Below are positions 2,263-27,958 of a stretch of DNA of 64,000 bases, piece by piece. Numbering within the stretch: the first letter of the stretch is position 1; the number at the start of each line of letters is the position of its first letter. The translations under genes and the position numbers were made by a program. The stretch lies in contig NZ_CP060139.1 of the NCBI RefSeq assembly GCF_014524565.1, positions 3,789,501-3,853,500 on the forward strand. Direction: 5' to 3'. This DNA is from Croceimicrobium hydrocarbonivorans. Its GTDB lineage: Bacteria; Bacteroidota; Bacteroidia; Flavobacteriales; Schleiferiaceae. The notes beneath the pieces were generated by a model. It saw nothing but the letters and a program-made list of their open reading frames with translations, was not told the origin of the DNA and did not search any database.

Positions 2263-2409
2263 GAGGGTAGTTTGAATAAAAATCGAACTATTTGGGCTGC
2301 ATTTTCGTTAAGCCAAGGTTATTTTTACAAGTAATTTCTATGCTCATTAAATGGGATTGGTCGCTTTGGTCTGGTTCTTGTTTTGATGGGCTCAAACTAA
2401 AATATCAAA

Positions 2410-3006
2410 ATGAAAAAGTTCTATTTTCTCAGTTTACTAAGTCTGGCCTTTTTAGGCATGCAAGCCCAAACTGAAACTCTTTTGGGATCTAATTTTAAGG
2501 TGGGCGGATTTGGCGGTCCTCTTTTTCAATTTAGCAGTGTAGATGGCAATTTCGCCTATTACTCCGGTGGTGGAGGCGGGGTGATCCTCGATGGTAAATT
2601 TTTTATCGGTGGTTTTGGAATGGGCTTAAACACCCAGCATAAATATGATATTCCCTATGTGGGTATACCTGTGGAACATGAATTAGACATGGGCTATGGC
2701 GGTCTTTGGTTGGGATATATTTATCGTCCAACCAAGGTGGTGCACCTTAATTTTTCCTTGCCTATTGGTGGTGGAGCTGTTTCTTTTGATCGGGTAGGTG
2801 ATGGTTACGATATGGATATTAATGATGGCATTTTTGTGATCAACCCAAATTTGGGCATGGAATTAAACCTCACCAAATGGATGAAGTTTACAGCCAATGC
2901 AGGTTATTTGATGGCGATGGGATTGGATAATGATTATATCGCTAGCGATGCTCTGAACAGTCCAAACCTTACATTGGGCTTCAAGTTTGGCTATTTCGCT
3001 GAATAG
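2410..3006 (+). CDS. Small outer-membrane-type protein, function unknown
   Basis: A protein of 198 residues with a clear signal peptide (MKKFYFLSLLSLAFLG, cleaved after MQAQ). The mature part is rich in glycine and aromatic residues and alternates polar and hydrophobic positions, as in small outer-membrane beta-barrels of about eight strands. A Gly run (YYSGGGGG) lies near residue 55. It ends in an aromatic-rich strand (KFGYFAE). No enzyme motif is visible. It is a single gene followed by a strong hairpin terminator. I do not recognise the family; a surface or periplasmic protein is the most I can say. Confidence 0.7.
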   Translation: MKKFYFLSLLSLAFLGMQAQTETLLGSNFKVGGFGGPLFQFSSVDGNFAYYSGGGGGVILDGKFFIGGFGMGLNTQHKYDIPYVGIPVEHELDMGYGGLWLGYIYRPTKVVHLNFSLPIGGGAVSFDRVGDGYDMDINDGIFVINPNLGMELNLTKWMKFTANAGYLMAMGLDNDYIASDALNSPNLTLGFKFGYFAE

Positions 3007-3030
3007 TAAAAAGATAGTATAATTGATATA

Positions 3031-3061
3031 AGGCTTGCTTCGAAAGAGGCAGGCCTTTTTT
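3031..3061 (+). terminator. Intrinsic terminator of the small outer-membrane-type gene
   Basis: An 11-bp stem (3031-3041 with 3046-3056, two G-U pairs) closes a GAAA tetraloop and runs into a T tract at 3056-3061. It ends the plus-strand gene at 3006 and overlaps the stop codon of the convergent minus-strand gene. Confidence 0.85.
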
Positions 3062-5813
3062 AATAATAGCCGCGGCGTAGGCGATTAATGATATTGCCTA
3101 ATTGCAGGTCTAATACAAAGCGCACATTAGAAAGGTAATTTGCTTCTGAATAGAAATTGCGATCCTGATTTTGAATAGGAAGATACAGTTCCACAAAATC
3201 TGTAAGCAAAGCCAAACGCACTCCATAATCCCAATACATCTGCTCTTCAGACCAGGCGATATCAGCGAAAGCGCCTAAGGGACCTACAAAGGGCACACTT
3301 AAATTAGAGCTTAATAACCAGGAATCCGCGAATGCCTGGGTTTCCGATTTAAAGCCACCATCGGTAGTAAAAAACTGCCGACTCCAAATTCCACTTTGAT
3401 CGGAGCGACCAATGAAATAATAATCGAAGAGGTAATCCGGAGTTCCGCTGAGGCCAAAGCTGTAATAATTATCGCGTAAACCTTGATCTGCCAGATTATT
3501 ATACAGGAAAGCGCCCGCAAAGCCTCTTAAGATTAACCACTTTTTATTGGGCAGCATCCAACGTTGATCGTAATCAGCGAAGATTTTTCCAAATTGATCA
3601 GCCGCTTCAAAGTGGAAACGGAAAATAGTAGGTCTAAGCAGGGAAGTGTATTCCATGCGGTAATTAGCATTAAAAACCGAGAAGCTGGCTGTTTCCAAAT
3701 TTCCTTGCGGATTCTCTTGATCCGGGGCTAATTCGCGATTTAATAAGACTCCTCTAAAGCGTAGGCTCTGTATATAAGGACTGCGAGGATACTTTTTACG
3801 CAGGTATAAATTTAGAGAAGGAGAGATGCGATAATAGGCCAGGTCACGGTCGTAATGGTTGTAGCGACTGTAAACACCTAAACGGATTTGCCGGAAGAAA
3901 TTGCTTTTTGGTAATACCCAATTGTAGGCCGCTGAAGCAGTTCCGGTTAATTTCCCAGTTCCGGTGCTGTATTCGGGTACCAATAGGTATTCAAAAGGTT
4001 TTTGAACCAGAATGGAACGATTGGAAAGGTTTATCCCCAGCAGAAATTGATCGTAGGCATTGTAGTAAACACTGGGAACATAAAAAATCTGACTGGCCTC
4101 GGCTGCTTCAAAGCTGTTGTACAATTGGAAGCTCAAAGGCTCCATTCTTGGCAAAAGCCAGCGATTGTAATAGGTATTGTTTTTTTGTCGGTACTCAGCA
4201 TGATTGAGATGTGCATTAATCACCACCTTATCATACTCTTCATGGTACATCTGCACCGAACGTTTGCCCTCATGGCCACCATACCATTCGGTTAATACCG
4301 CTTTCCCATCCTTAAATCCGGTAAGGGAGTAGGGCAGGGCTAAATCACCCGTATTGCGAATAGTAGCCGTGCTTACGGTTGGGCAATGCTCCTGACGCAC
4401 TAATTGATAGTCGTACAATCCTGCGCTATGCAAGGCCGGGCCAAAAAACCAATCCATGTTTTTAGGGCTGTAATAGCGGAGGGAATACTCCAGTGCAGTA
4501 TAGCTAGACGCTGCGCTGTCATTGGCGGCAAAGTTGTGCATAGAGCGTACAAAGTCGCGTGGACTGAGGTAAGCCCGCAAATGGCTAAGCACTAAAAAGC
4601 TTTTCGCCTGACTAATGGCCTCGTAGTTTAAACGAGAAAGGGAATCTACCGGACAGCTTAATGATTGATCCAAGCCTTGGCGTTGCAAAAAGAGAAAGAG
4701 GAAACGATTTTGATAGGCGAAATCAAATTCATCAAAACCGAAAAGACCATTTAGAATAGGGCTTTGAAAAGGTATCCAACGCTTTTGCGGATAGCGACTT
4801 TCAATAAACTGATATTTGTAATAATAGGGAATGCCGCGAGCTATCCAAGGCCTTTGCCAGCCATCGGTAGCTTTTTGATAGCGAAAGAAGGATTCGGCCA
4901 AAGCTTGAACTAAATCAAAACGGAGATCAATCCAATCTTTTGGCCTTTTCAGGCTGATGAGTTCGGCACTTTGGTATTCGCCTTTTTTGGAGTCTAGGAA
5001 AATATAATTGCGTTTCTGGCTTAATTCTCGTCCAATTTCTTGCTTAAAAAAGGCATCAGCTTCTTCTAAAGCCAGCTCTAGATTGGCGGGGAAAATGGGG
5101 TCAGCTTGACTTAAATACAGTTTAGAACCTGATTTCAATTCATAGATTTCCCAATGCTTGGCAATGAAGAATTGTAAGGATTTGGATTGGCCAGCAAAAT
5201 GAAACCATTCTCCTTGACGAACTTGAATAGGCAAATTACTTACGACCTCTTTGCCTTCCGGTAGATGCAGACTTAGTTGGAAATGCTCCGAAGCAAAATA
5301 GCCATCGTAATTATAACTAAGCGGATGACGATGCTGCGAATGGAGAATGATTCTGGGAAGTAAATCAATAATTCGACTTTCCGATTTTAACCGGCCATTC
5401 CCGGTGAATTTCGCATCCGGTAAAAGAAAGCGGTACTCAATATGAATCTGCAGGCTGTCATTTTGATCTAAGGGAAGCTCCAGGAATTCACTTTCTAAAG
5501 AAGCAACTACCTCTTTGTCATTCAAAAGGAGCTTATCGATTTGCAGCCAGGCTAATTCATCTTTTTTAGCAAAATGCAGATCTGGATCTTGAAAATCCCT
5601 TAGTTGATCATTTAAAAAAGAGCCTTTATCTAAATAGGCCTGCAATGGAAAGTGAATGCTCAGGCAATCTTGGTTGGATGGTCTTGGACCTTTGTAATCA
5701 AGAACAGCAATAGCGGTATCGCCCTGCATGTCAATACTATGCTTGTTGATTTGGGCCAGGACTTGCAAATGCCCGGTTAGCAATACTAATAGAAAGCAGA
5801 GCTTCTTGATCAT
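3060..5813 (-). CDS. M1-peptidase-like secreted protein without zinc-binding residues, with C-terminal barrel-like half
   Basis: 917 residues with an N-terminal signal peptide (residues 1-20). Residues about 25-450 follow the M1 aminopeptidase layout: a beta-rich N-domain, then a segment LVQALAESFF (301-310) and PWIARGIPYYY (322-332). These sit where active M1 enzymes have HExxH and the WxxEGxxxY segment. The histidines and the distal glutamate are absent, so zinc binding and peptidase activity are unlikely. The last 400 residues are rich in Tyr, Phe and Asn and look like outer-membrane beta-strands. It is a lone gene, convergent with the gene ending at 3006. Possible roles are peptide binding or surface assembly; this is inference from fold resemblance only. 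Confidence 0.6.
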   Translation of the reverse strand: MIKKLCFLLVLLTGHLQVLAQINKHSIDMQGDTAIAVLDYKGPRPSNQDCLSIHFPLQAYLDKGSFLNDQLRDFQDPDLHFAKKDELAWLQIDKLLLNDKEVVASLESEFLELPLDQNDSLQIHIEYRFLLPDAKFTGNGRLKSESRIIDLLPRIILHSQHRHPLSYNYDGYFASEHFQLSLHLPEGKEVVSNLPIQVRQGEWFHFAGQSKSLQFFIAKHWEIYELKSGSKLYLSQADPIFPANLELALEEADAFFKQEIGRELSQKRNYIFLDSKKGEYQSAELISLKRPKDWIDLRFDLVQALAESFFRYQKATDGWQRPWIARGIPYYYKYQFIESRYPQKRWIPFQSPILNGLFGFDEFDFAYQNRFLFLFLQRQGLDQSLSCPVDSLSRLNYEAISQAKSFLVLSHLRAYLSPRDFVRSMHNFAANDSAASSYTALEYSLRYYSPKNMDWFFGPALHSAGLYDYQLVRQEHCPTVSTATIRNTGDLALPYSLTGFKDGKAVLTEWYGGHEGKRSVQMYHEEYDKVVINAHLNHAEYRQKNNTYYNRWLLPRMEPLSFQLYNSFEAAEASQIFYVPSVYYNAYDQFLLGINLSNRSILVQKPFEYLLVPEYSTGTGKLTGTASAAYNWVLPKSNFFRQIRLGVYSRYNHYDRDLAYYRISPSLNLYLRKKYPRSPYIQSLRFRGVLLNRELAPDQENPQGNLETASFSVFNANYRMEYTSLLRPTIFRFHFEAADQFGKIFADYDQRWMLPNKKWLILRGFAGAFLYNNLADQGLRDNYYSFGLSGTPDYLFDYYFIGRSDQSGIWSRQFFTTDGGFKSETQAFADSWLLSSNLSVPFVGPLGAFADIAWSEEQMYWDYGVRLALLTDFVELYLPIQNQDRNFYSEANYLSNVRFVLDLQLGNIINRLRRGYY

Positions 5814-9834: not shown

Positions 9835-10743
9835 TTAATAAAATACTAAAGGATCCATGCGTAGGATTCTACTTATAGCTTGGTAAAGTACGGGCATTTC
9901 TTTTTGAAACTGTGCCGGTCTTTCAATGAAGTTCTCGCAGCAAACGGCAAAAAACTCATGCACATTGGTGCGAGCATAGGATCTCAGAAACTCACCTTTA
10001 TAGGCTGGCCTGCTGGTAAATAGCTCGAACTCTTCTAGAAATAAATGGTAATCACGGGGATCAATGAAATCGTAATTGGAGTTCAAAATTTTGTTCTCCA
10101 ACTTTAGGGCATGAGCCATTTCGTGAACTCCTAGATTTTGACCATCATTGCGATCGGAATTTCCCTTTTCGAAAGAGGACCAGGAAAGAACGATCATTCC
10201 ACGAATATTAACTTCACCTGCATGGTATTGCTTGCTGATGGTGGAGTAGTAGTCATCCCGGTAAATTAAGATGCGGGAAAAATGATCGAAGTAAAATCGG
10301 CGAAAGCCAAAGGTGAGCTCTACCGCTGTAGCGGCAATTAAGGCTTTTTTGCGATCGTCGACCTGCATGTATTTATCTCGGGCGATAAACTTTTTAGTAT
10401 TAATGAACTGCTGTACTCTGCGCTCAAAGCGCTTTTGCAATTTGGGCGGCAGGCGTTTGTACAGCGGAATTTCCTGCAAATAAGGACGGTAACTTAATTT
10501 GAGATTCAAGGGATACTGTTTATTGGTCCAGCGATAAATGCTGAAAATGGGCAATACCAGCATCAGGGATACAGCAGCTATGTCTCCCATCACTTCAACA
10601 ATCTCTCTTTCCGGGCCAGGTTCTGGGACCTGAAGAAAAAACAGCGATTGCAGGAATAGCGATTTGAATAGAAAAATCATGGTCGCTAAAATTAGGATAT
10701 TCCTAATCACTGCGCTTCGTATATTCGTGATAAAGCTTCGCAT
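9835..10743 (-). CDS. Membrane-anchored zinc peptidase of the MtfA (M90) family
   Basis: 302 residues. Two hydrophobic N-terminal helices (about 12-38 and 52-70) anchor it; classical MtfA is soluble. The C-terminal domain carries HEMAH (207-211) and the downstream NVHEFFAVCCE segment (260-270) with a third candidate ligand, as in M90 peptidases, where MtfA of E. coli binds Mlc and is an aminopeptidase. It is the first gene of a three-gene minus-strand run (peptidase, AAA+, TPR membrane protein). Its start codon shares the sequence CATG (10741-10744) with that of the divergent gene, so each promoter must lie inside the other coding region. Substrate unknown. Confidence 0.8.
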   Translation of the reverse strand: MRSFITNIRSAVIRNILILATMIFLFKSLFLQSLFFLQVPEPGPEREIVEVMGDIAAVSLMLVLPIFSIYRWTNKQYPLNLKLSYRPYLQEIPLYKRLPPKLQKRFERRVQQFINTKKFIARDKYMQVDDRKKALIAATAVELTFGFRRFYFDHFSRILIYRDDYYSTISKQYHAGEVNIRGMIVLSWSSFEKGNSDRNDGQNLGVHEMAHALKLENKILNSNYDFIDPRDYHLFLEEFELFTSRPAYKGEFLRSYARTNVHEFFAVCCENFIERPAQFQKEMPVLYQAISRILRMDPLVFY

Positions 10744-11248
10744 GAATTTAAGTCGCCTATTTCAAAAAGCTCAGACGAGCAAATACCATAAATTTTTATT
10801 GGAGCAGGGCTTACGCCGATTTGTGCCCTTTAATCGATCACATCGATTTCAAATTGAGCAAATTAGCACACATTCACTACGGATTAAGGCCCCTTATCGC
10901 AAGTCCAATTTAAATCACCTCAAGGGTATTCATGCTTGTGCCTTAGCCACTATTGCCGAGATTAGTTCCGGTTTGCTTTTAATTGGAATTCTGGATCCGA
11001 ATAAATACCGAATCATCTTGCAGAAATTGGATTTAGAATACCATTATCAAGCGAAAAGCGAAGCCATTGCCCGATTTGAAGTTTCAGAAGATTGGTTACA
11101 AGATCGGGTTTTTGAACCCCTGGAAAATTCAGATCGAGTGTTTGTAGACTGCAATATCAATCTCTTTGATAAGGATGATAAACAGGTGGCTACGGCTATC
11201 GCCCGATGGCAGATTAAGAACTGGCAATCGGTGAAAACGAAAGTATAA
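10742..11248 (+). CDS. DUF4442 hotdog-fold protein (thioesterase-like)
   Basis: 168 residues when started at the ATG at 10742; a longer TTG start 78 bases upstream would only add residues read antisense through the peptidase gene and is not favoured. The hotdog signature NHLKGIHACALATIAEISSG spans about residues 50-70, with the long hotdog helix at its centre, and resembles PaaI-like thioesterases and DUF4442 members. A CoA- or ACP-thioester substrate is plausible but not shown. The following DMT gene begins three bases after its stop, suggesting one transcript. Confidence 0.75.
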   Translation: MNLSRLFQKAQTSKYHKFLLEQGLRRFVPFNRSHRFQIEQISTHSLRIKAPYRKSNLNHLKGIHACALATIAEISSGLLLIGILDPNKYRIILQKLDLEYHYQAKSEAIARFEVSEDWLQDRVFEPLENSDRVFVDCNINLFDKDDKQVATAIARWQIKNWQSVKTKV

Positions 11249-11251
11249 GCC

Positions 11252-12100
11252 TTGGCACGGCAAAAATCATTGCTCTATTTACACAGTTCGGTAGCACTTT
11301 TTGGATTAGCCGGATTGTTTGGCCGCTGGCTTAATTTCAACCCTTTGATCATTGTAGGAGGGAGGGTCTTATTTGCAGCAATAGCCCTCGCTATTATTCT
11401 GGGTTTACGAAAAGGTGCTCTTCCAAAATTGAGTGTAAAACTCCTGTATCGAACTGCCGTCTCCGGAGCCATTTTGGCTTTACATTGGTACGCTTTCTTC
11501 AAATCTATTCAGGAGACCTCGGTGGCTTTAGCTCTGTTAAGCTTTGCCAGTTTTCCTTTATTCACTTTGATTCTGGAAAGTGTATTCTGGAAACTGAAAG
11601 TTCATGGGATTGATGTTTTATGGGCCTTGATGTCCATAAGCGGAACAGCCTTAATTGTACCTTGGGATATGGCTTCGCCGGAAACCAATGGCGTACTTTG
11701 GGGTCTCTTTGCTGGCTTTAGTTTCGCTGTATTGAACCTACTTAATAAAGACCTGGTCAAGAAACATTCGGCCTTGGAAATTGGCTTTTATCAGGACATT
11801 TGGGCCACCTTGGTTCTATTACCATTCTGCATTGCAGTTTGGCCTCAATTTACCGCTCAGGATATTGGCTTACTGATTCTGTTGGGAACGGTGTTTACCG
11901 CCCTGTCGCATTTCTTATTTCTGGCGGCTCTAAAAGATTTAAAAGCCAGAACTGCAGCCTTGGTTACCGCCTTAGAGCCCGTATATGGCATTGCCGCTGC
12001 CTATTTCCTTTTTCAGGAAACACCGGAACTCACTGTTTTCCTAGGTGGGATTCTAATTCTAGTCGCTAGTTTGGGCGGGCAAAGAAGGGAAAAGGCTTAA
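11252..12100 (+). CDS. DMT-superfamily transporter with two EamA domains
   Basis: 282 residues with ten transmembrane helices in two five-helix EamA repeats, the standard size for drug/metabolite exporters (RhaT/YdcZ/EamA type). The second repeat shows ALVTALEPVYGIAAAY (about 241-256), the typical sequence near helix 9. The start is a TTG at 11252, three bases after the upstream stop; no in-frame ATG would leave the first helix intact. Substrate cannot be read from sequence. Its TAA overlaps the TAA of convergent kdsC. Confidence 0.88.
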   Translation: MARQKSLLYLHSSVALFGLAGLFGRWLNFNPLIIVGGRVLFAAIALAIILGLRKGALPKLSVKLLYRTAVSGAILALHWYAFFKSIQETSVALALLSFASFPLFTLILESVFWKLKVHGIDVLWALMSISGTALIVPWDMASPETNGVLWGLFAGFSFAVLNLLNKDLVKKHSALEIGFYQDIWATLVLLPFCIAVWPQFTAQDIGLLILLGTVFTALSHFLFLAALKDLKARTAALVTALEPVYGIAAAYFLFQETPELTVFLGGILILVASLGGQRREKA

Positions 12101-18580: not shown

Positions 18581-18961
18581 ATGAAAAAAAGACCTGCTCT
18601 TAAATACCTCATTTTTAGTCTGGCCGTATTAATCTTGATCATAATCTTCAGGCCGGCACCGCCCATTGATGAAGCAGAAGCTCGAATTGAAACCGGGCGG
18701 GTAGAGCGTATTTATGAAATTGGAAATGTAGATCTAGCCTTTCAATTGGAAAACGGCGAAACCTTTGTCATTAGAGAAGGAGTAGAGCAGTATTTGCGAG
18801 CGGATAGCCTTCGGGGTCTCTATTTAAATAAAGAGCTCACTTTTAAGTATCCCGAATATTGGTCGCCAATTAATAGGGATTCAAGCCAAAAGCATGCTTC
18901 TCAGGTGCAGTGGGGCGAGGAGATAATCTATACCGAGTTTAAGAAGAAGCCTAAGCCTTAA
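18581..18961 (+). CDS. Small membrane-anchored protein, function unknown
   Basis: 126 residues: a short basic start (MKKRPALK), one transmembrane helix (about 8-24), then a charged extracytoplasmic domain that looks beta-rich (VERIYEIGNVDLAF, ETFVIREGVEQY). It could be an OB- or SH3-like small barrel, but nothing is recognised. It starts 18 bases after the sucC terminator. Its stop codon overlaps that of the convergent Bor-like gene. Confidence 0.65.
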   Translation: MKKRPALKYLIFSLAVLILIIIFRPAPPIDEAEARIETGRVERIYEIGNVDLAFQLENGETFVIREGVEQYLRADSLRGLYLNKELTFKYPEYWSPINRDSSQKHASQVQWGEEIIYTEFKKKPKP

Positions 18962-19308
18962 TTCGACTCTTTGCGTTTCACCTTGCGATTGGTATTACGC
19001 TTGTAAATTTCATCGGGAATGGTAACCGTAGTAGTGGTTGGGGTGTAAATCCCGATGGTTAAGGTGGATACGATCATGTCTTGCGGAGTAGATCGTGTGT
19101 AGATTTCATAATTCAAGGTATCGCCAACCATTTGGTCAATATGGCAGCGCTTAACGGGAATTACACCAAATCCCATAAAATGATTCTTCTCCGTTACCTC
19201 ACGAGTTTTCTCAACGCGTACGCCTTTTCCGATGCTGTAGTGATGACTGAAGCAAGAACTTAAGAGTAAACTGCCAATGACGAGGGCGGCCAGGCTTTTC
19301 AATTTCAT
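18958..19308 (-). CDS. Bor/Iss-like lipoprotein
   Basis: 116 residues with a lipoprotein signal: LLLSSC with Cys19 as the acylated residue. The mature part resembles lambda Bor and E. coli Iss, small outer-membrane lipoproteins linked to serum resistance. The shared features are a HFMGFGVIP segment (aligned with HHFFVSGIG of Bor), a following Cys, and a STLTIGIYTP segment (aligned with FITLGIYTP). A basic tail (NTNRKVKRKES) is extra. The match is by eye to two motifs, so the family is likely but the function in a marine or soil bacterium is open. Confidence 0.6.
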   Translation of the reverse strand: MKLKSLAALVIGSLLLSSCFSHHYSIGKGVRVEKTREVTEKNHFMGFGVIPVKRCHIDQMVGDTLNYEIYTRSTPQDMIVSTLTIGIYTPTTTTVTIPDEIYKRNTNRKVKRKESN

Positions 19309-20115: not shown

Positions 20116-21183
20116 GTGGGGGTTTTGAACTTGAGTACAACTAAGAAGAAGCTTTTTAGGTTTGAGGTGGACCTGGAAGAGAACTCCGTTTGGTTTTCGG
20201 ATTCCTTCTACGAAATGATGAATATATCTCATTCCCATTCATTTATGTTTAATGATTACTGGAGCCTAGTGCATCCGGATGATCGAGAACAGGTTCGAAA
20301 GGTCTTGGAGGTTGGTATGGAGAAAGCCTCCGAAATTGAACTGAAGTATCGCTTGCAAACCAGCTTTGGTAAAACCATACACGTTTATAATGAAAGTAGC
20401 TTTAGCAGCAATGCCATAGGAAAAGTGGTAAGCATGCGCGGTATGGTAATGGACATCAGTCCTTATGTGAATGTGCAAAGTCGCATTGATGAGATGCAAG
20501 ATCTGCTCGAAATGAAAGATCAGGCGATTGCCATGATTGCCCACGACCTACGCAATCCTATTTCTCAGGTTGATGGTATCTTAAGATTATTGAGAGCAGA
20601 GCTACAGAAGGAAGAAAATCTGGGCTTAGTGGATATGGGATTTGACGCCATTAACCATGCTTACACCATATTGGCTGAACTCAATGAGGCTACTCGAAAC
20701 AAGGTTGCCGGTAAAAGCATTGATAAAGAAAAATTCCTTTTAGCTCCCTTATTGCAAAAAGTGGGAGAAGCCTTCAAGATTCGTTTAGAAGAGAAAGGCT
20801 TAGATCTACATATTGATGCCCCAGAAGATTTAGTGGTGTTGGCTAATGAGAACAAGCTTTTTAGAGCGGTTGAAAATCTTATCTCTAATGCGATTAAGTT
20901 CTCCAAAGAAGGAAAGGCTATTCATTTGATTGGTCGCGATGAAAAGGATTGTTTTTGTATTGCGGTAGAAGATCAAGGTATAGGTATGCCTGAGTCTATC
21001 CGCAAACGCCTTTTTCAAGGGATGAATAAAGATATCCGCAGAGTAGGAACCGCTGGTGAAAGCTCAATTGGTATTGGTTTGAGTATTGTGAAAGGGGTGG
21101 TAGATTTACATCAAGGGAAAATCCGGGTAGAAAGCGAAGACGGCAAAGGATCTCGATTTACCATTTGCATACCTAAGTCTTAA
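20116..21183 (+). CDS. Cytoplasmic PAS-domain sensor histidine kinase
   Basis: 355 residues with no membrane helix. A PAS fold-3 domain (about 13-118) shows WSLVHPDDREQV (49-60) and RGMVMDIS, then a short coiled coil leads to a phosphoacceptor helix with H143 (IAHDLRNPIS). The ATPase domain has the N box (NLISNAIKF), G1 (DQGIGM) and G2 (GIGLSIVKGVV). The start is a GTG at 20116; the first in-frame ATG would cut into the PAS domain. No response regulator is adjacent, so the partner is unknown. Stop codons overlap with the convergent reductase. Confidence 0.88.
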   Translation: MGVLNLSTTKKKLFRFEVDLEENSVWFSDSFYEMMNISHSHSFMFNDYWSLVHPDDREQVRKVLEVGMEKASEIELKYRLQTSFGKTIHVYNESSFSSNAIGKVVSMRGMVMDISPYVNVQSRIDEMQDLLEMKDQAIAMIAHDLRNPISQVDGILRLLRAELQKEENLGLVDMGFDAINHAYTILAELNEATRNKVAGKSIDKEKFLLAPLLQKVGEAFKIRLEEKGLDLHIDAPEDLVVLANENKLFRAVENLISNAIKFSKEGKAIHLIGRDEKDCFCIAVEDQGIGMPESIRKRLFQGMNKDIRRVGTAGESSIGIGLSIVKGVVDLHQGKIRVESEDGKGSRFTICIPKS

Positions 21184-21756: not shown

Positions 21757-21787
21757 GAAAAAAAGCCCATCCTTAGGGGATGGGCTT
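21757..21787 (-). terminator. Terminator of the gld-like operon
   Basis: A 10-bp perfect stem (21763-21772 with 21778-21787, core GCCCATCC/GGATGGGC) is followed on the minus strand by seven T residues (A run 21758-21764 on the plus strand). It lies 30 bases after the last operon gene. Confidence 0.88.
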
Positions 21788-21817: not shown

Positions 21818-23956
21818 TTATAAACTCGGAACCTTTGGTTTTTCCCTGGGTTTATCGAGGAAATAGGATAGGCCTAAATGAGCCTGGAAATACCAGTCAT
21901 TTAGCCCGTCGGTGGACCGGAAGGTGTTTTCCCGAGGTAGTTTCACTTCTTTGGTGATTCCATATAGTTCGCGATTACTGAGTTCACCAACTTGCTGATT
22001 GGCGCGCATAGCTTCAATATCGCCACCATACCATAAACCAGGGCCAAAGTCATCCAAATAGTCAGTCGAAGTGTAAACTGCTTTTACTTCACCTTTTAAG
22101 CTAAAGTTTCGGAAAAGCCAGGTGGTACTAAAACTCAATCCGGTGGATACCGCAATTTGCGAGTAGGGTTTAGCACCAGGTAAGAAGTTTTGACCTTCAG
22201 ACCCCAGATTTCTTAGATTGTATCGATTATCCCGGATTCTTGCCAGATAGGAGAGGTAATTCTCATCAGGCTTTCGTTCGCTGTAAATAGTTCGATAAGG
22301 AGTAAAGTGAAAGGCGCCTATGGATAGTCCCAAACTCGGGATCAACTTGGATCCTTGATTGGGTTTTAATTGATATTGCCGTAAATGCCAAATACCCTCG
22401 AATTCCAAGCTTCGTATTTGGGTTATGAAACTGATCGGGAAGGCGTTTTTCGACATTTGTACTTCTTGATACTCATCATTATAGCCCATTAATGGAGCGG
22501 TGCCTGAGAAAAAGCCAACCGAGCTTAAATCATGCATGGAAATGGTGGTATGGTAGAAGGAGGCTTTTGCAGCAAAACGCGTATTAAAGTTGTATTGGGC
22601 ATAGGCGCCAAAGCTCCAATCAATAGTAGAAGGGGTGTAAGCCAAATCCTCTACCAACTCAAATTTGGGTTTGATATCGCCGGCGCCATACATACCACCG
22701 CCGCCCCATAGTCCAACTTCCCAGCGATTTACTGGGGTAGTGCCTTTGGTGAAGAAATTGTGAACGCGATTTCCCAAATTGGCTAAAGCCGTATTTTCTT
22801 CTGCGGCAGCGGTATCCAAGGCTTCTTCCTCGGCATAAACGGGTAAATCTTCTTTTTGAGTGCTGTCTAAAACTTCAGACACTTCAGGCTTAGGAAGTAT
22901 GATGCGATATCCATCGGCCAATTCTAAGAATTTAGCTGGTCCTTCGGTGTAGATTACCCAGCTGTGATCCTTCTGGCGAATTAATTCATAGTCCAACGAA
23001 TTCTCTGCTTCATCCAAAAGGGTGAACATCAGGTTTTTCTGACCCACATTGGCAATTTGCATTTGAATGCTGTCTTGCACATGCTTTAGAATTTTGAAGT
23101 CAGTAGCCTCCTTGGTTTCGAGAGGACGAAGCTCTATAACCTCTAATTGGGCTAAGCGATGGTCTACGCGATGATCCAAGATGCTAACTTCCTTAGTTTC
23201 GGCAGCTAGAGATTTAATTTTCAATTCCTGTTCAAAATTGCCTCCTACAGAAATCAGGTAATCGTCATCTTCAAAACGGTTACGATCGAAGATAAAGGTT
23301 CCGATATCTTGAGGATTGCGCTCATCTGGATAAAGGTCAAAATGAACCAAAGCTTGTTCCGGACCTTCAAAATAATTATCGCGGAAATGGATTTGGTCAA
23401 AATCATAGTTCACCAATGGAGAGCCGTAGGCTTCGACAACCATGCCGGAGCGATTATTGACAAAGAGCAGGTCTTTTACCTTGAGGTCGATGCTTCGTCC
23501 CCATCTACGGTCGATATAAGGATCGCCTAAGTACAATACCGGCTCACCACTGGTGCTCCCCTGAAAATGAAGTTGTTCTAAAATGACTTCCTTTCGATAC
23601 CAAAAGGGATCAAAACGCAAAGCTTGGGTCAGATCTTCGAATTCTACATTTCGAATTTTAACCGCGGCATCGGCGCTTTGAGCCTGGATTTGAATTCCCA
23701 CCCCTGGGTTTTCAGGGTCACTATTAATAATTCGGATGGGCTTCTCAGCACTTCCTTCTAAACATAAGGACCCTTCGATAAGGAGCAGTACTCCAGGGCC
23801 TAATTCGATCACAGAGCCGGCATAGGCCTCCAGGCTCTGACCTTCCTTAAAGAAGGTGTTTTTCTCAAAGCGCAGCGTGTCTGAGGCCGCATGCACTGTG
23901 CTGCCAGCTCCGGTGAGGCCGATGGCAAGCAGCATTGAGTAGATTTTACTTTTCAT
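21818..23956 (-). CDS. Beta-helix and DUF6089-like outer-membrane barrel fusion, last gene of gld-like operon
   Basis: 712 residues. A signal peptide (1-23, VHAA) is followed by a right-handed beta-helix-like region (about 40-250) with repeated IRNVEFEDL, LEQLHFQG, FDQIHFRDNYFEG and FIFDRNRFED turns. A mixed domain follows (250-355), then an acidic linker (about 356-398). The last 300 residues form a barrel of the DUF6089 type, with a GAFHFTP strand (about 547-553) and LGSEGQNF (584-591). The start overlaps the second GldM-like gene by 11 bases. Inference: the outer-membrane end of the motor complex, with the helix region exposed to the periplasm or the surface. DUF6089 proteins are common, but this fusion is not one I know. 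Confidence 0.75.
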   Translation of the reverse strand: MKSKIYSMLLAIGLTGAGSTVHAASDTLRFEKNTFFKEGQSLEAYAGSVIELGPGVLLLIEGSLCLEGSAEKPIRIINSDPENPGVGIQIQAQSADAAVKIRNVEFEDLTQALRFDPFWYRKEVILEQLHFQGSTSGEPVLYLGDPYIDRRWGRSIDLKVKDLLFVNNRSGMVVEAYGSPLVNYDFDQIHFRDNYFEGPEQALVHFDLYPDERNPQDIGTFIFDRNRFEDDDYLISVGGNFEQELKIKSLAAETKEVSILDHRVDHRLAQLEVIELRPLETKEATDFKILKHVQDSIQMQIANVGQKNLMFTLLDEAENSLDYELIRQKDHSWVIYTEGPAKFLELADGYRIILPKPEVSEVLDSTQKEDLPVYAEEEALDTAAAEENTALANLGNRVHNFFTKGTTPVNRWEVGLWGGGGMYGAGDIKPKFELVEDLAYTPSTIDWSFGAYAQYNFNTRFAAKASFYHTTISMHDLSSVGFFSGTAPLMGYNDEYQEVQMSKNAFPISFITQIRSLEFEGIWHLRQYQLKPNQGSKLIPSLGLSIGAFHFTPYRTIYSERKPDENYLSYLARIRDNRYNLRNLGSEGQNFLPGAKPYSQIAVSTGLSFSTTWLFRNFSLKGEVKAVYTSTDYLDDFGPGLWYGGDIEAMRANQQVGELSNRELYGITKEVKLPRENTFRSTDGLNDWYFQAHLGLSYFLDKPREKPKVPSL

Positions 23957-25337
23957 GAGTTAACACATTAATGATGAGTCGATCACTGATTTTCATCTCG
24001 CCATCGGGACTTTGAATCAGTACTTCTTCTATTTCGATATAGGAGAGGCCCTTAACATCAGTGGCCTCTAAAATGAGTTTGTTGGGACTGCTTACCGTCT
24101 TCTCTCCAAAAGATCCATAAAGTTTAGCTCTAACCTCTTTGATGTCTAATTGAGGTGCCTCATCCTGTCCTGGGAATAATACCTTAAGGTCGATCTCAGG
24201 CTTTTGTATTAAGCGCGTTCTGGAGATTTGATTTTGGGAAATACCACTGGCATAAACCAAAGGAGCTGGCAAAGGATGGATATATACCGAATCTTCAAAG
24301 GCCAATGCCTGAAGTTTTGGGTCCATGCCTTTTATATAGCACCAGCCGGATCTGGAGGGTTGTACCCTTAGCTTATTTCCTTGAGCTTGGATTGTGCGTC
24401 CGGGCATACAAGTACAGCTGTAGTCGAGTTGACTTTGCCAGTTTTCCAGAGGTAGGTAAAAGGGGAGTCCAGAATAATAGGCTTCTGGAGCATTATAACT
24501 TTTTGAGTTAAAATTCCCGGGTAATACCTCAAACTGGAAGCTGCGTTGCTCACGACCTAATTGGAATTCCAATTTATAGGAACCGGTATCCAAAGCCACG
24601 AAAACCAGACTGTCTTTTTCCCAGTCATAATTTTGTGCTTTTCCCTTTCCTACTGTGAGTTCCAGCTTAGGACGAACCTCACCTTGGTAAACAAAATAGG
24701 CGGTGTCGCCAATATGTAATTCGTCGATATTATAAGCTAAAACCAATTCCGGACTATCGCCATTACCGGCAGGTTCCACTTTAAGATCGCCCTGTAAAAG
24801 ATTGAGCTTTAAAAGTAGATCTGCCATTTGCAATTGTACCACGGTAGCCGGAACATGAGAAAATTTCCAACTGGTCCAGCTTTGATGGCTTTTAGCTTCC
24901 AATCCATGCTCCAAATCGCTTTGAAATAGCTTTAAGTAGGCTATGCGAGTTGAATTGTTTTCTGGAAGTTGGTTGACACTATCGTCCAAGGCCTGAAGTG
25001 CTAAAAAGAGCTCTTCTCCCTTTTTACCTTCCAGGAAAAATTGGTCGGTTTGGGCATAATTCTCGGGATTTAATAAATCACCGGTAAGAGGATCAGATCC
25101 GGCGAAAGCCATGAAATCACTTTCCATGGTCTTAATGCGTTTCTTTAATCCTTCGATATTATCACCTTCCTTAGATTCAGAATCGAAGCTTAATAAGGTA
25201 GTCCTCAAATTGGGATTTACTCTTAGCCAGCCGATCGGAATCTGAATAATAGATAGGGAAATGAACAGTAGGTAAAGGATACTGATCAAACGAAACCGAA
25301 GGTTCTTGGATTTTTTGATGCGTATATACTTTGCCAT
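23946..25337 (-). CDS. GldM-like motor protein, second copy
   Basis: 463 residues. A basic cytoplasmic N-terminus (1-16) precedes one membrane helix (about 17-34) that aligns with GldM at YLLF. R14 lies eight residues before that Tyr, like the functionally important R9 of GldM. A helical segment (60-190), then beta domains including a cysteine motif (CTCMPG), fill the periplasmic part. The C-terminal domain ends in EIEEVLIQSPDGE (about 438-450), aligning with the GldM end domain. GldM is the rotor that crosses the periplasm as a dimer. Its start overlaps the stop of the first copy by one base, so the two are made in matched amounts. Identity with the first copy looks low. Confidence 0.75.
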   Translation of the reverse strand: MAKYIRIKKSKNLRFRLISILYLLFISLSIIQIPIGWLRVNPNLRTTLLSFDSESKEGDNIEGLKKRIKTMESDFMAFAGSDPLTGDLLNPENYAQTDQFFLEGKKGEELFLALQALDDSVNQLPENNSTRIAYLKLFQSDLEHGLEAKSHQSWTSWKFSHVPATVVQLQMADLLLKLNLLQGDLKVEPAGNGDSPELVLAYNIDELHIGDTAYFVYQGEVRPKLELTVGKGKAQNYDWEKDSLVFVALDTGSYKLEFQLGREQRSFQFEVLPGNFNSKSYNAPEAYYSGLPFYLPLENWQSQLDYSCTCMPGRTIQAQGNKLRVQPSRSGWCYIKGMDPKLQALAFEDSVYIHPLPAPLVYASGISQNQISRTRLIQKPEIDLKVLFPGQDEAPQLDIKEVRAKLYGSFGEKTVSSPNKLILEATDVKGLSYIEIEEVLIQSPDGEMKISDRLIINVLTHEK

Positions 25338-26740
25338 TATTTCATTTTAAGGATAGCTCGGCCGTCGCGATAGCTATGTCCGTTTTTGCCAATTACTTTG
25401 ATATTCTCAAAAGCCATAATGCTGCCTTCAGGAGCTCTGAGGATTGCTTCCTTCAATTCACTGCGCAGGAAACGAGTGGCATTGTGAAATACCTGATCTC
25501 GGCCACCAGGGCTTTTAATGCGCAATTTGAAATTCACAACTTGCCAAAAAGGATTACTTGCTTCCAGATAGGCTAATTGATTTAGCCCATTCTCCTTGCC
25601 GGCAATATCCATAAGCGCAACATCGATGGTATTTACGTCCTTGGCATATAAGCTCAAGGAATCTACCTTTTTGTCGTCCAGCTTCATGAATACATCAAAG
25701 GCACCAGGATTGTAGGGGGTGATCTTCAATAGGCCATTTTCATAGCTCAAATCAGCATGCTCCGAAACAAAGCTTAAATCCCCCTCCGGTAAATACTGCG
25801 GGTTTAGTTGCAGAATTTGAGTTTCCCCAACCTGTGAGAGGTAGGAGGAGCCCTGGCGATTAAGTTTGATGCCTGGCTTGGTAACTTTGAAATTATGGAA
25901 GAAGCGTTCTTCGTCAAGATATAGGTCCACTACATAATTTCCGGGAGCTTCGGGTAGGTACTCAAAATGTTGAAAGCCCGAATCTACCTGAAAGGGAGCG
26001 AGGTCCTTGCCATTGATCAATACCTTCAAATTTTGAATGCTATCCGGCAATCGAACTTTAAACAGGAGCTTTTCACCTTTGGAAAGGGTCTTTTTGAAGT
26101 TTTGGATCAGATCTAATTGATCCGCTTCACTTACTTCCTGTTTGAGTAATTCGATTTTCTCGCCTTTCAAGGCTTCGATACTGTGGATGAGAATTACAGT
26201 TTCTAAATGATTAATCACCGACTCGATCACGGCATTGGGTGTTTCCTTAAAGAAGAAATCGCGCGCCTGTATTTCTTGATCGGCAAAATCTTTAGGACTG
26301 AGTAATTCGGCACTTAGATCCGAACCGCCAAATTCCAGATAAGCCTGGTTGAAGTTTTCGAGGGTTTCCTGAAAACGGGTGCCATAGCTACCTTGAATGA
26401 TTTCGTTGGTAGCAAAGAGGTTCTCCTTGAGCTTCTCACCAGCAATATGGTTTGTATTGCGATAATCGTAATAGCCCGTGCGGATTTCCTCTAACTTTTG
26501 CAAGCTGGATAGCGTTTGCGCCTTGAGATTTTGACTCTTGGAGTCGCCTTCCGGCAATTCTTCGAGTTGAGTCCTCAATTTTTCAAGAACCACTTCCTGT
26601 GCGGGAACCAGGTTTTCATAATGATCCAAAAACTTACCCGGACTGGATAAAAAGAGGAACAAAATGAAGACCAGGTACAAGAAGCTCAGTTTCTTGAAGA
26701 TCAGGTTCTTCGCTTTTGATATTTTAATGGTATTCGCCAT
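25337..26740 (-). CDS. GldM-like motor protein, first copy
   Basis: 467 residues, close to the size of GldM (about 510). The N-terminal cytoplasmic tail (1-16) is basic and the single membrane helix holds FLYLVFILF (about 20-28), as in the MYLVF helix of GldM. Residues 40-190 are helical, matching the GldM D1 domain, then beta domains follow. The end is the clearest evidence: LRSELKEAILRAPEGS and MAFENIKVIGKNG (about 425-455) align with the GldM C-terminal domain, in which MK..I.RAKPGDKV and FENIKAKGPDG are conserved. At the R9-equivalent position there is Ile; lysines lie three and two residues later. It follows the GldL-like gene by 18 bases. Confidence 0.8.
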   Translation of the reverse strand: MANTIKISKAKNLIFKKLSFLYLVFILFLFLSSPGKFLDHYENLVPAQEVVLEKLRTQLEELPEGDSKSQNLKAQTLSSLQKLEEIRTGYYDYRNTNHIAGEKLKENLFATNEIIQGSYGTRFQETLENFNQAYLEFGGSDLSAELLSPKDFADQEIQARDFFFKETPNAVIESVINHLETVILIHSIEALKGEKIELLKQEVSEADQLDLIQNFKKTLSKGEKLLFKVRLPDSIQNLKVLINGKDLAPFQVDSGFQHFEYLPEAPGNYVVDLYLDEERFFHNFKVTKPGIKLNRQGSSYLSQVGETQILQLNPQYLPEGDLSFVSEHADLSYENGLLKITPYNPGAFDVFMKLDDKKVDSLSLYAKDVNTIDVALMDIAGKENGLNQLAYLEASNPFWQVVNFKLRIKSPGGRDQVFHNATRFLRSELKEAILRAPEGSIMAFENIKVIGKNGHSYRDGRAILKMK

Positions 26741-26758
26741 TGTGCAGCGCTATTCAGA

Positions 26759-27385
26759 CTAGGATTCCAATACCCGGTCGTACTTATCATTGATACTGCG
26801 CAAATTGGCATTGTAATGGTCCATCAAATGGATAAAATCTTCCATCTGATTTTGCATGGCCACAGAGCTTTGGGCTGATGCTTCCATATTGGCGCGGATA
26901 TCACGAATGCTAAGGGATAGATTGTGAATCTCACTGCTCATATTTTCCATACTGGCATTAAAGAGCTGCATCGCTTCACCATAGTTGCCGGCGCTGCCAT
27001 TCATTGGCTGACCTTGACCATTAAGTTGCGGGAATACATTTTCCCATTGGTATTCTTTTTCTTCCTCCTTGCGCTCGAAAGCAGAGATAAGGAATACAAC
27101 GGCCTCGATACTTAAACCAACGATAAAGAGCTCATTAGCAAAGGACCAGCCCAGGAATTTGAACATGGCACCTACCAGTACGATGGCGGCACCAAAGCCA
27201 TAAATAAAGGTGATGCTATCGAGCTTACCTTTTTTGGCTTCTTTGGACTTGTTCATACTAGTATGACCATTACTGATCTGATGACCATTGCCATTGCGCA
27301 TATCTCGTTTTCCATTTCTTTCCGAATGGCCATTGCGATAGCCATTTGATCTTCCGTTTCGAGTTGTGGTTTCTTGACTTTGCAT
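26759..27385 (-). CDS. GldL-like motor protein with Asn/Gly-rich N-terminal extension
   Basis: 208 residues. GldL forms the proton-driven pentamer around a GldM dimer. Here two membrane helices (about 59-77 and 85-103) carry YGFGAAIVLVGAMFKFLGW and LSIEAVVFLISAFE; E94 sits where the essential transmembrane Glu of GldL is. A short cytoplasmic part (104-208) ends in helical repeats. Residues 1-43 are an odd low-complexity stretch rich in Asn, Gly and Arg (RNGRSNGYRNGHS) that typical GldL lacks. An ATG at codon 44 would give a normal GldL start, but the first ATG lies only 2 bases after the upstream gene, which favours the long form. Confidence 0.85.
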   Translation of the reverse strand: MQSQETTTRNGRSNGYRNGHSERNGKRDMRNGNGHQISNGHTSMNKSKEAKKGKLDSITFIYGFGAAIVLVGAMFKFLGWSFANELFIVGLSIEAVVFLISAFERKEEEKEYQWENVFPQLNGQGQPMNGSAGNYGEAMQLFNASMENMSSEIHNLSLSIRDIRANMEASAQSSVAMQNQMEDFIHLMDHYNANLRSINDKYDRVLES

Positions 27386-27387
27386 GA

Positions 27388-27921
27388 TTAGTTGTTTTTA
27401 AGAAAGTGGTCTTGAAAATGATTCCAGCTAGCCTGGCTGCTGGCCAAACTGCGATTTACACTGCGGCGGTTGATCAGCACAAAGGCGATGATCAGCACCA
27501 GAAAGGCTATTCCGGCCGCTAGTAATTGATAATTGATTTGACCCGCCAGTTGCGCCTCTAATTTGGCCGCCACTCGGTTTTGGTCTTCAAACTGCTCCTG
27601 GAATTGATCCAGTGCCAGATTCAAGGCTCTTTCCGTTTGCACTTGCTGTGCCTGGAAATTTTCCATTTGACTCTGGTTTTCTGCGATTTGGCTCGCTACC
27701 TTCTGATTGAGGGAATCGCTATTGCTTTCCATTCGAATCAATTCCAGTTGCAGGGCCTGGGTTTCGCGTAAAACCTGATTCTGAGTTTGCATCACATTGC
27801 TGATGCGGCTTTCCATAATCCGGATGTCCTGTTGCAGTCGATTGAGCCGTAGTGAATCGTTCTCTGCATGCAGGAAAGGAGGGATCATTAAAAGAATGAC
27901 TAAAGTTTTCCTTACTGTCAT
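27388..27921 (-). CDS. Signal-peptide coiled-coil protein with C-terminal membrane helix, first gene of gld-like operon
   Basis: 177 residues. A signal peptide (1-19, PFLHAE) leads into a long coiled coil rich in Gln, Glu and Leu (about 25-128), then one membrane helix (about 131-151), then a short basic cytoplasmic tail. So the coiled coil stands in the periplasm on the inner membrane, the compartment crossed by the GldM shaft. It has no counterpart in gldKLMN. Its stop is 2 bases ahead of the GldL-like start. Function not known; a stator brace or periplasmic spacer is inference. Confidence 0.75.
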   Translation of the reverse strand: MTVRKTLVILLMIPPFLHAENDSLRLNRLQQDIRIMESRISNVMQTQNQVLRETQALQLELIRMESNSDSLNQKVASQIAENQSQMENFQAQQVQTERALNLALDQFQEQFEDQNRVAAKLEAQLAGQINYQLLAAGIAFLVLIIAFVLINRRSVNRSLASSQASWNHFQDHFLKNN

Positions 27922-27950
27922 GGGGAGTTTATGATTGGTTAGGATATCTC

Positions 27951-27958
27951 CAAATGTA
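27951..27958 (-). promoter_or_regulatory. -7 box of the gld-like operon
   Basis: TACATTTG on the minus strand is a perfect TAnnTTTG box, 29 bases upstream of the first operon ATG. The -33 region at 27976-27984 has no TTG, so the promoter may be weak or need an activator. Confidence 0.5.

Follow-up and report, generated by a model that had tools for sequence, protein, structure and literature searches.

A conserved five-gene cassette of Croceimicrobium hydrocarbonivorans, with one GldL and two GldM homologues, as a candidate second GldLM-type motor

GldLM is a 5:2 proton-driven motor for type IX secretion and gliding, encoded in gldKLMN operons; structures of GldM and PorM show D1–D4 axles that are long force-transmitting shafts, with R9 of GldM acting near the GldL Glu. 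That a 5:2 motor can be recruited to another task is illustrated by ZorAB, the MotAB-like 5:2 motor of Zorya defence. Here we describe a cassette of five genes, termed A, L, M1, M2 and E, in a 64,000-nucleotide stretch (the window; NZ_CP060139.1, positions 3,789,501–3,853,500) of the single-contig, 4,035,598-base, 99.97% complete genome of Croceimicrobium hydrocarbonivorans. The five-gene operon is real and is part of a conserved system, and the homologies and the conservation of the cassette are well supported. The reading we favour, with a probability of roughly 0.6, is that the five genes specify another motor of GldLM type, proton-driven and 5:2, which drives E directly, without a track. 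A sequence-only reading of the window had proposed a GldL-like gene with the key membrane Glu, two GldM-like genes, a periplasmic coiled-coil protein and a beta-helix joined to an outer-membrane barrel; all of these assignments are borne out by the comparisons below, that of the beta-helix and barrel by prediction.

As described in excerpts of the papers cited, E49 and E59 of GldL are dealt with in connection with proton flow in the GldLM motor, and E59 is reported to be required for adhesin movement but dispensable for secretion (PMC8986121). Excerpts of PMC12635249 describe a Cys in the C-terminal tail that disulfide-links PorG and SprF to GldK, part of the moving track, the PorG tail being periplasmic and its partner residue in GldK being Cys343. 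The AglRQS motor of Myxococcus gliding combines a MotA-like protein, AglR, with two MotB-like ones, AglQ and AglS, both of which have a conserved Asp (excerpt of PMC9389320); the A-L-M1-M2-E cassette resembles it in having one wheel gene and two axle genes, a likeness by gene content, not membership. With GldLM/PorLM the cassette shares a GldL homologue with a membrane Glu and a Lys in the first transmembrane (TM) helix, and GldM homologues that are alike over nearly their entire length and in the predicted order of domains. By contrast, no GldK or GldN is found at cassette loci in the stretches covered, the cassette proteins form separate branches in both GldL and GldM trees, there are two GldM forms, one of which lacks R9, the operon adds a fused beta-helix/PorG-type barrel and the coiled-coil A, and all of this is found beside the canonical set.

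L scores above the cut-offs of PF22827 (Pfam GldL_N; 3.7e-25, 88.3 bits, cut-off 24) and NCBIfam TIGR03513 (81.6 bits, cut-off 68.3), and its profile matches the solved GldL chain 7sau_C at 4.3e-26. The membrane Glu E94 and Lys K76 are invariant in 21 aligned rows (L022 omitted), as are E51 and K33 in 19 rows of canonical GldL (L127 and L131 omitted). A second Glu of L (E104 in the window, aligned with GldL E59) is kept in cassettes of the A-L-M1-M2-E type, and is replaced by Gln or Asp in 6/7 distant L rows. L of the window and of close relatives also has an Asn/Gly/Arg-rich N-terminal extension (residues 1–50; window 27235–27385), which is absent from most other L proteins.

The GldM assignment of M1 and M2 depends on profile-profile and fold comparisons, not on searches of the PDB by sequence profile, which returned filamin immunoglobulin domains and no GldM for M1, and GldM at an E-value of only 0.088 for M2; as single sequences, neither gives a GldM match in Pfam or NCBIfam. 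In hhalign, the M1 and M2 profiles match canonical GldM with probabilities of 98.4% (5.1e-15, 428 columns) and 98.5% (1.6e-15, 433 columns), respectively, and each other at 2e-19, while the M profile of more distant cassettes matches canonical GldM at 100% over 485 columns and finds PorM at 4.2e-38. These alignments give good support to homology with GldM over nearly the whole length for M1, M2 and the single-M forms. The predicted structure of M1 (mean predicted local distance difference test score, pLDDT, 81; predicted template modelling score, pTM, 0.46) has beta domains in addition to a TM helix and a helical bundle. In Foldseek, the seven top-ranking matches of this model are PorM/GldM; VIA-align likewise gives Z-scores of 14.2, 12.4, 11.8, 11.4 and 11.3 for PorM/GldM entries, a comparison in which the absence of other families carries no weight. 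The match to PorM (Z 14.2) extends over 375 residues with a root-mean-square deviation of 32.6 Å, which points to a different arrangement of the domains; that to GldM (Z 12.4) has a deviation of 3.4 Å over 151 residues of the first domain.

The E model (mean pLDDT 79, pTM 0.50) has an N-terminal beta-helix (residues about 27–280), followed by a beta domain and linker, a helix (383–403) and a C-terminal barrel (408–699) for which eight long strands were counted; its PDB matches are the barrels of OmpA, Ail and NspA, with tailspikes and PL6 lyases lower, the best solved matches being OmpA and Ail. A Pfam scan assigns no family to E, which gives 41.4 bits against a local PorG profile and 23.9 bits against the PorG equivalog NF052316, far under the cut-off of 130. 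The barrel aligns with PorG in hhalign (99.85%, E 1.3e-30, 243 columns) and, like PorG, has eight strands and the motifs LGxEGQ, TDYLDD and RxxxxxNDWY. Unlike PorG, E has about 380 residues of its own N-terminal to the barrel and no Cys in the C-terminal tail, where one is present in 0/32 E proteins (last 22–25 residues) versus 10/10 PorG; the E count omits the protein of L201, which is shortened by a stop, and includes the C-terminal piece of that of L202, and the PorG alignment covers 10 of the 15 loci L143–L157, the other five having a missed frame or a long false start. The known mode of joining the GldK track is thus missing from E. Both ends of an eight-stranded barrel lie at the periplasmic side, as does the PorG tail, and the beta-helix is therefore most likely periplasmic. 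A role of E as an export pore was also considered, and is unlikely given a predicted barrel of eight strands.

The cassette occurs in about 43 genomes, i.e. the present one, the 29 behind loci L004–L033, three more in the family and ten more in the class, and has three arrangements: A-L-M1-M2-E, A'-L-M-M-E and a minimal L-M-E. Scanning genome contigs with L yielded the 30 loci L004–L033, the contig records of which are all labelled as metagenome-assembled genomes (MAGs); among named contigs, the closest belongs to a MAG of the Flavobacteriales (UBA7878; L004), with a GldL 96% identical to L. The order A-L-M1-M2-E is seen, as far as the contigs reach, in 23/23 loci L004–L026, and in seven further loci (L186–L188, L193–L196); L-M-M-E with an A-like protein upstream is seen in L027, L028 and L030, and L-M-E with one M in L029, L031, L032, L033 and four more loci. 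Flanking genes are common to close relatives and differ between lineages. Chance association or mis-called genes can be ruled out, the order recurring in distant families with different flanks. Two of the loci, L012 and L019, come from one MAG (G759), which has either two cassettes or is a mixed bin.

Of 395 class genomes searched with E, 349 have a match. The beta-helix part was matched, among the matches listed, in 15 genomes (13 open frames and two, G806 and G944, broken by stops), the others covering the barrel region, as expected for PorG. Again among the matches listed, where stretches from 14 of the 15 beta-helix genomes were examined, L and M precede E in 13/13 genomes with enough upstream sequence (12 plus the present one); in L200, M2 stands before E and the contig then ends, and in L199 there is no room upstream of E. 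Within the family, cassette L is found in 11/88 genomes, including 6/7 in the genus (with the present genome among them), and a canonical-type GldL is listed for all 11 as well; in an order sample it is found in 11/395 at E 1e-30, all within this family. The alignments behind these comparisons (M1 and M2, 14 rows each; E and L, 21 each; A, 16) mostly omit near-copies and contig-cut genes, as well as the E of L025, which is split in two frames, and the A of L022. No report of the cassette was found in the open-access literature searched (open-licence PMC papers).

The sequence-only reading had also held that the operon lacks GldK and GldN and is distinct from a canonical set that was then only supposed to exist. 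The present genome has porP-gldK-L-M-N-N' at L003, and PorG, SprA and GldJ outside the cassette. A GldL outside the cassette is likewise present in 29/29 genomes behind L004–L033, and 9/9 such genomes inspected (L131, L134–L141) have the full set of K, L, M and N genes. A GldK profile built from 20 rows and a GldN profile built from 21 match only the canonical loci L002/L003 among 55 records, with no match in 53 cassette records (44 distinct loci) or in the window, a negative that speaks for the stretches examined, many contigs being short. The cassette GldL does not group with the GldL of gldKLMN operons: in an unrooted tree of 40 rows, all 21 cassette rows are set apart from the canonical ones by a branch of length 2.71 (support 100/99) that is present in 100% of 200 bootstrap trees; one of the canonical rows, L142, has a very long branch. 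A quick GldM tree (57 rows; Shimodaira–Hasegawa-like approximate likelihood ratio test, SH-aLRT, only) places M1, M2, distant M and canonical GldM each in one group (100, 100, 87 and 100). The two trees rule out a recent duplicate of canonical gldLM. A cassette-L profile also separates the two kinds: cassette L scores 159–242 bits, and no other GldL exceeds 101; a local profile gives more distant cassette L 154–213 bits, and the cut L of L202 126. On grouping in trees, on the presence of a separate canonical set and on the keeping of gene order in other genomes, the sequence-only reading is supported.

Some features of the canonical loci may be recorded here. L003 has two tandem gldN genes (10216–11049 and 11037–11900; G000:C1 about 1300215–1301899) scoring 368 and 287 bits. 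At L135 (G767) the best canonical-GldM match, at 2056–3621, lies beyond gldN and not beside gldL, suggesting that this operon has a second GldM-like gene. The canonical GldL of L137 (2899–4083) and L139 (5017–6201) has 394 residues, with a longer repetitive cytoplasmic part.

A telling difference between M1 and M2, which stands out together with the lack of a tail Cys in E, is at the position of the membrane-proximal Arg R9 of GldM; this position was located by a scripted motif anchor and agrees with the hhalign register. Neither of these two features, nor the minimal form with one M, had been noted in the sequence-only reading. Arg is present there in canonical GldM (19/19), M2 (28/28) and lone M (8/8), and is absent from M1 (0/31), which has Ser, Ile, Asn, Thr or Leu instead. 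The M2 count omits L013, L014 and L018, where contigs end before M2, and L200, where M2 lacks its start; the canonical set omits L131, a near relative of L003, and L135, with its match beyond gldN. That one partner always has the Arg and the other never does is as expected of a heterodimeric axle, without being proof of one, and it suggests an asymmetric M1:M2 axle. In the GldM tree the M pairs of distant cassettes fall outside M1/M2, which suggests two separate origins of two-M forms, although the long M1 and M2 branches meet, with a program warning, making the deep order unsure. Branching within M1 and within M2 looks parallel by eye, and M1–M2 distances correlate at 0.965 over 11 rows; other operon members also correlate (0.72–0.95) through shared history, so this value cannot separate contact from shared operon history, and M1–M2 coevolution was dropped as evidence of contact. 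M2 of closer relatives keeps a C-x-C ... C set (C308, C310, C333), similar to the twin Cys of SprF/PorG; across 14 rows, C310 and C333 never vary. The idea that this set makes a further disulfide link to a track was dropped as a general feature, the set not being kept in more distant M2, and no conserved Cys was found in any cassette partner of M2.

A has a signal-peptide-like start, a coiled coil and one TM helix (hydrophobic stretch 127–156). It was found by BLAST in 22/23 loci L004–L026 and, in the remaining one (L022 = L184), by hidden Markov model at 57.4 bits. Its cytoplasmic tail carries a motif W-N-x-F-Q, in which W166, N167, F169 and Q170 are invariant in 16 rows; in eight further A proteins the Trp is kept and the rest varies. 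The A-like proteins upstream of the distant pairs (L027 8877–9938, L028 458–1666, L030 8646–9929) each have a signal peptide, a periplasmic part, a TM helix and a cytoplasmic part, the end of which is GrpE-like by eye. A SPOR-like periplasmic stretch is present in 2/3 of them, that of L028 scoring 17.0 bits (cut-off 21) and that of L030 being recognised by eye with no Pfam match.

We infer the following arrangement, from stoichiometry and proton drive to the M1:M2 heterodimer, the M–E contact, the role of A and the output. Five L subunits would form an inner-membrane wheel, and the axle spanning the periplasm would pair M1 with M2 or, where the cassette is minimal, consist of its single M in two copies. 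By homology to GldLM, proton flow past E94 of L would turn the M axle, the tip of which would engage the beta-helix of E directly, with no GldK/GldN track being pushed, such that E may be motor client and adaptor in one chain. A, with its inner-membrane anchor and periplasmic coiled coil, most likely serves to brace or regulate the L wheel. The output would be force on E, in the form of lateral motion, torque or strain on partners encoded elsewhere; outer-membrane components may be moved or pulled rather than anything being exported through E. Among the functions proposed by the sequence-only reading, i.e. export, surface motion and force transfer, direct force transfer to the outer-membrane barrel fits best. 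A bolder form of this proposal, that the cassette provides a direct-drive, track-free third output beside type IX secretion and gliding, that an asymmetric M1:M2 axle, in which one working Arg takes the place of two, turns or drags the barrel via the covalently joined beta-helix and that two-axle versions arose twice, is put forward tentatively, its chances being somewhat below even.

Several observations weigh against the favoured reading. M1 and M2 are only 13–15% identical to canonical GldM in the profile alignments; the pTM values of the M1 and E models (0.46–0.50) leave domain arrangement unsettled, and the fold comparison with PorM/GldM covers M1. A PorG family search of the present genome did not list E. 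The distant pairs of L027, L028 and L030 keep the Arg in 5/6 M copies, so its loss is no rule across two-M forms, and the M1, M2 and A profiles are weak for L186–L188 (33–44, 54–59 and 21–27 bits, respectively), the order there being the same. The spread is patchy: one of the seven genus members has no cassette-L match, and in a phylum sample of 394, where at most nine candidates per genome were scored, only the present genome scores as cassette L. The counted sequences are also related, and near-copies remain (e.g. L004 and the window, L011 and L012, L186 and L187), so that the counts are not those of independent events.

The cassette might instead encode an auxiliary motor for the same type IX secretion/gliding machine, with M1/M2 driving the GldJKN track or E pushing SprA as PorG is thought to. 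Such a role would fit the GldL outside the cassette in every genome behind L004–L033, the gldKLMN, PorG, SprA and GldJ genes of the present genome, the PorG-type barrel of E and the second Glu kept in the A-L-M1-M2-E type, E59 being reported as needed for adhesin movement and not for secretion in excerpts of PMC8986121. However, E lacks the tail Cys throughout, dedicated L, M and E genes travel together, and the second Glu is Gln or Asp in nearly all distant L rows; this alternative is thus considered unlikely, if the foremost of those weighed. Of slightly less weight is the idea that M1 and M2 do not pair, but form alternative homodimeric axles in one kind of wheel, M1 being of low activity or regulatory. 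The overlap of the M1 and M2 genes by one base in the window, their co-occurrence wherever contigs reach in the A-L-M1-M2-E type, the high correlation of their distances (with the reservation on shared history made above) and the apparent double origin of two-M forms (with its long-branch warning) all argue for pairing, against which can be set the existence of cassettes with a single M and the lack of the Arg in every M1.

It may also be asked whether anything is moved. A bracing or sensing device of the Tol-Pal kind, in which the motor would act as a tether between the inner membrane and E and adjust how the outer membrane is attached, is rather improbable, in that D1–D4 axles are known as force-transmitting shafts and Pfam finds no peptidoglycan-binding domain in M1, M2 or E; it would, however, make sense of A or its counterpart reaching from the cytoplasm into the periplasm, of the SPOR-like stretches in two of the three distant counterparts and of the PAS histidine kinase located beside the cassette (see below). 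A role in anti-phage defence by means of a 5:2 motor, as in Zorya, would fit the self-contained form of the cassette, its patchy distribution and its motor homologue, yet appears very remote: PADLOC on the five proteins gives one weak match, LeoBC to L (18.3 bits, 2.4e-4), and thus none to Zorya, in which respect the cassette differs from ZorAB, and Pfam finds no nuclease-like gene in the cassette.

If the cassette is a second motor driving E directly, the GldLM motor class would be reused in a three- to five-gene version of machinery that usually comprises about 20 proteins (excerpt of PMC13104615). The proposal bears on the route by which force reaches the outer membrane, i.e. the disulfide link of PorG/SprF versus a single-chain fusion, and on what keeps the GldL wheel from turning, with A as a candidate brace. 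It also bears on the equivalence of the two axle chains of a 5:2 motor, one here without and one with the Arg; the missing Arg on one chain might alter the number of protons moved per turn, and may offer a natural variant for testing how 5:2 motors step.

With respect to local organisation (Table 1), the five genes are arranged head to tail on the minus strand, over 27921–21818, with a 2-base gap at A/L, an 18-base gap at L/M1, a 1-base overlap at M1/M2 and an 11-base overlap at M2/E, exactly as the sequence-only reading had it. Its terminator was likewise recovered, as a terminator-like hairpin of 10 pairs followed by a T-run, the longest stem among nine in the region, where the overall terminator count is not in excess (9 versus 7.0 ± 2.5 in shuffles). 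For its -7 box, a candidate of the Bacteroidota type, TACATTTG, was read by eye 30 bases ahead of A; a scan for sigma-70-type promoters was no better than shuffles (16 versus 12.5 ± 4.3).

Table 1. Features of the cassette and its signals, in window positions.
Feature	Position	Strand	Description
A	27388–27921	minus	177 aa; signal-peptide-like start, periplasmic coiled coil, one TM helix near C terminus, short cytoplasmic tail
L	26759–27385	minus	GldL homologue, 208 aa; two TM helices, membrane Glu E94, TM1 Lys K76
M1	25337–26740	minus	GldM homologue, 467 aa; N-terminal TM, then periplasmic D1–D4-like domains; Ile14 at GldM R9 position
M2	23946–25337	minus	GldM homologue, 463 aa; R14 as R9-equivalent Arg
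E	21818–23956	minus	712 aa; signal-peptide-like start, predicted beta-helix and PorG-type outer-membrane barrel
Intrinsic-terminator-like hairpin and T-run	21763–21787	minus	directly after E
Candidate Bacteroidota-type -7 promoter box TACATTTG	27951–27958	minus	30 bases before A start; read by eye

Close downstream of the cassette, at window 20116–21183, is a gene for a PAS histidine kinase, a possible regulator, which is also next to the cassette in 4/4 tested genus members that have one; it was not found at E 1e-60 in G411, the genus member without cassette L. A Bor-family lipoprotein gene (PF06291, 2.4e-14) lies at window 18958–19308.

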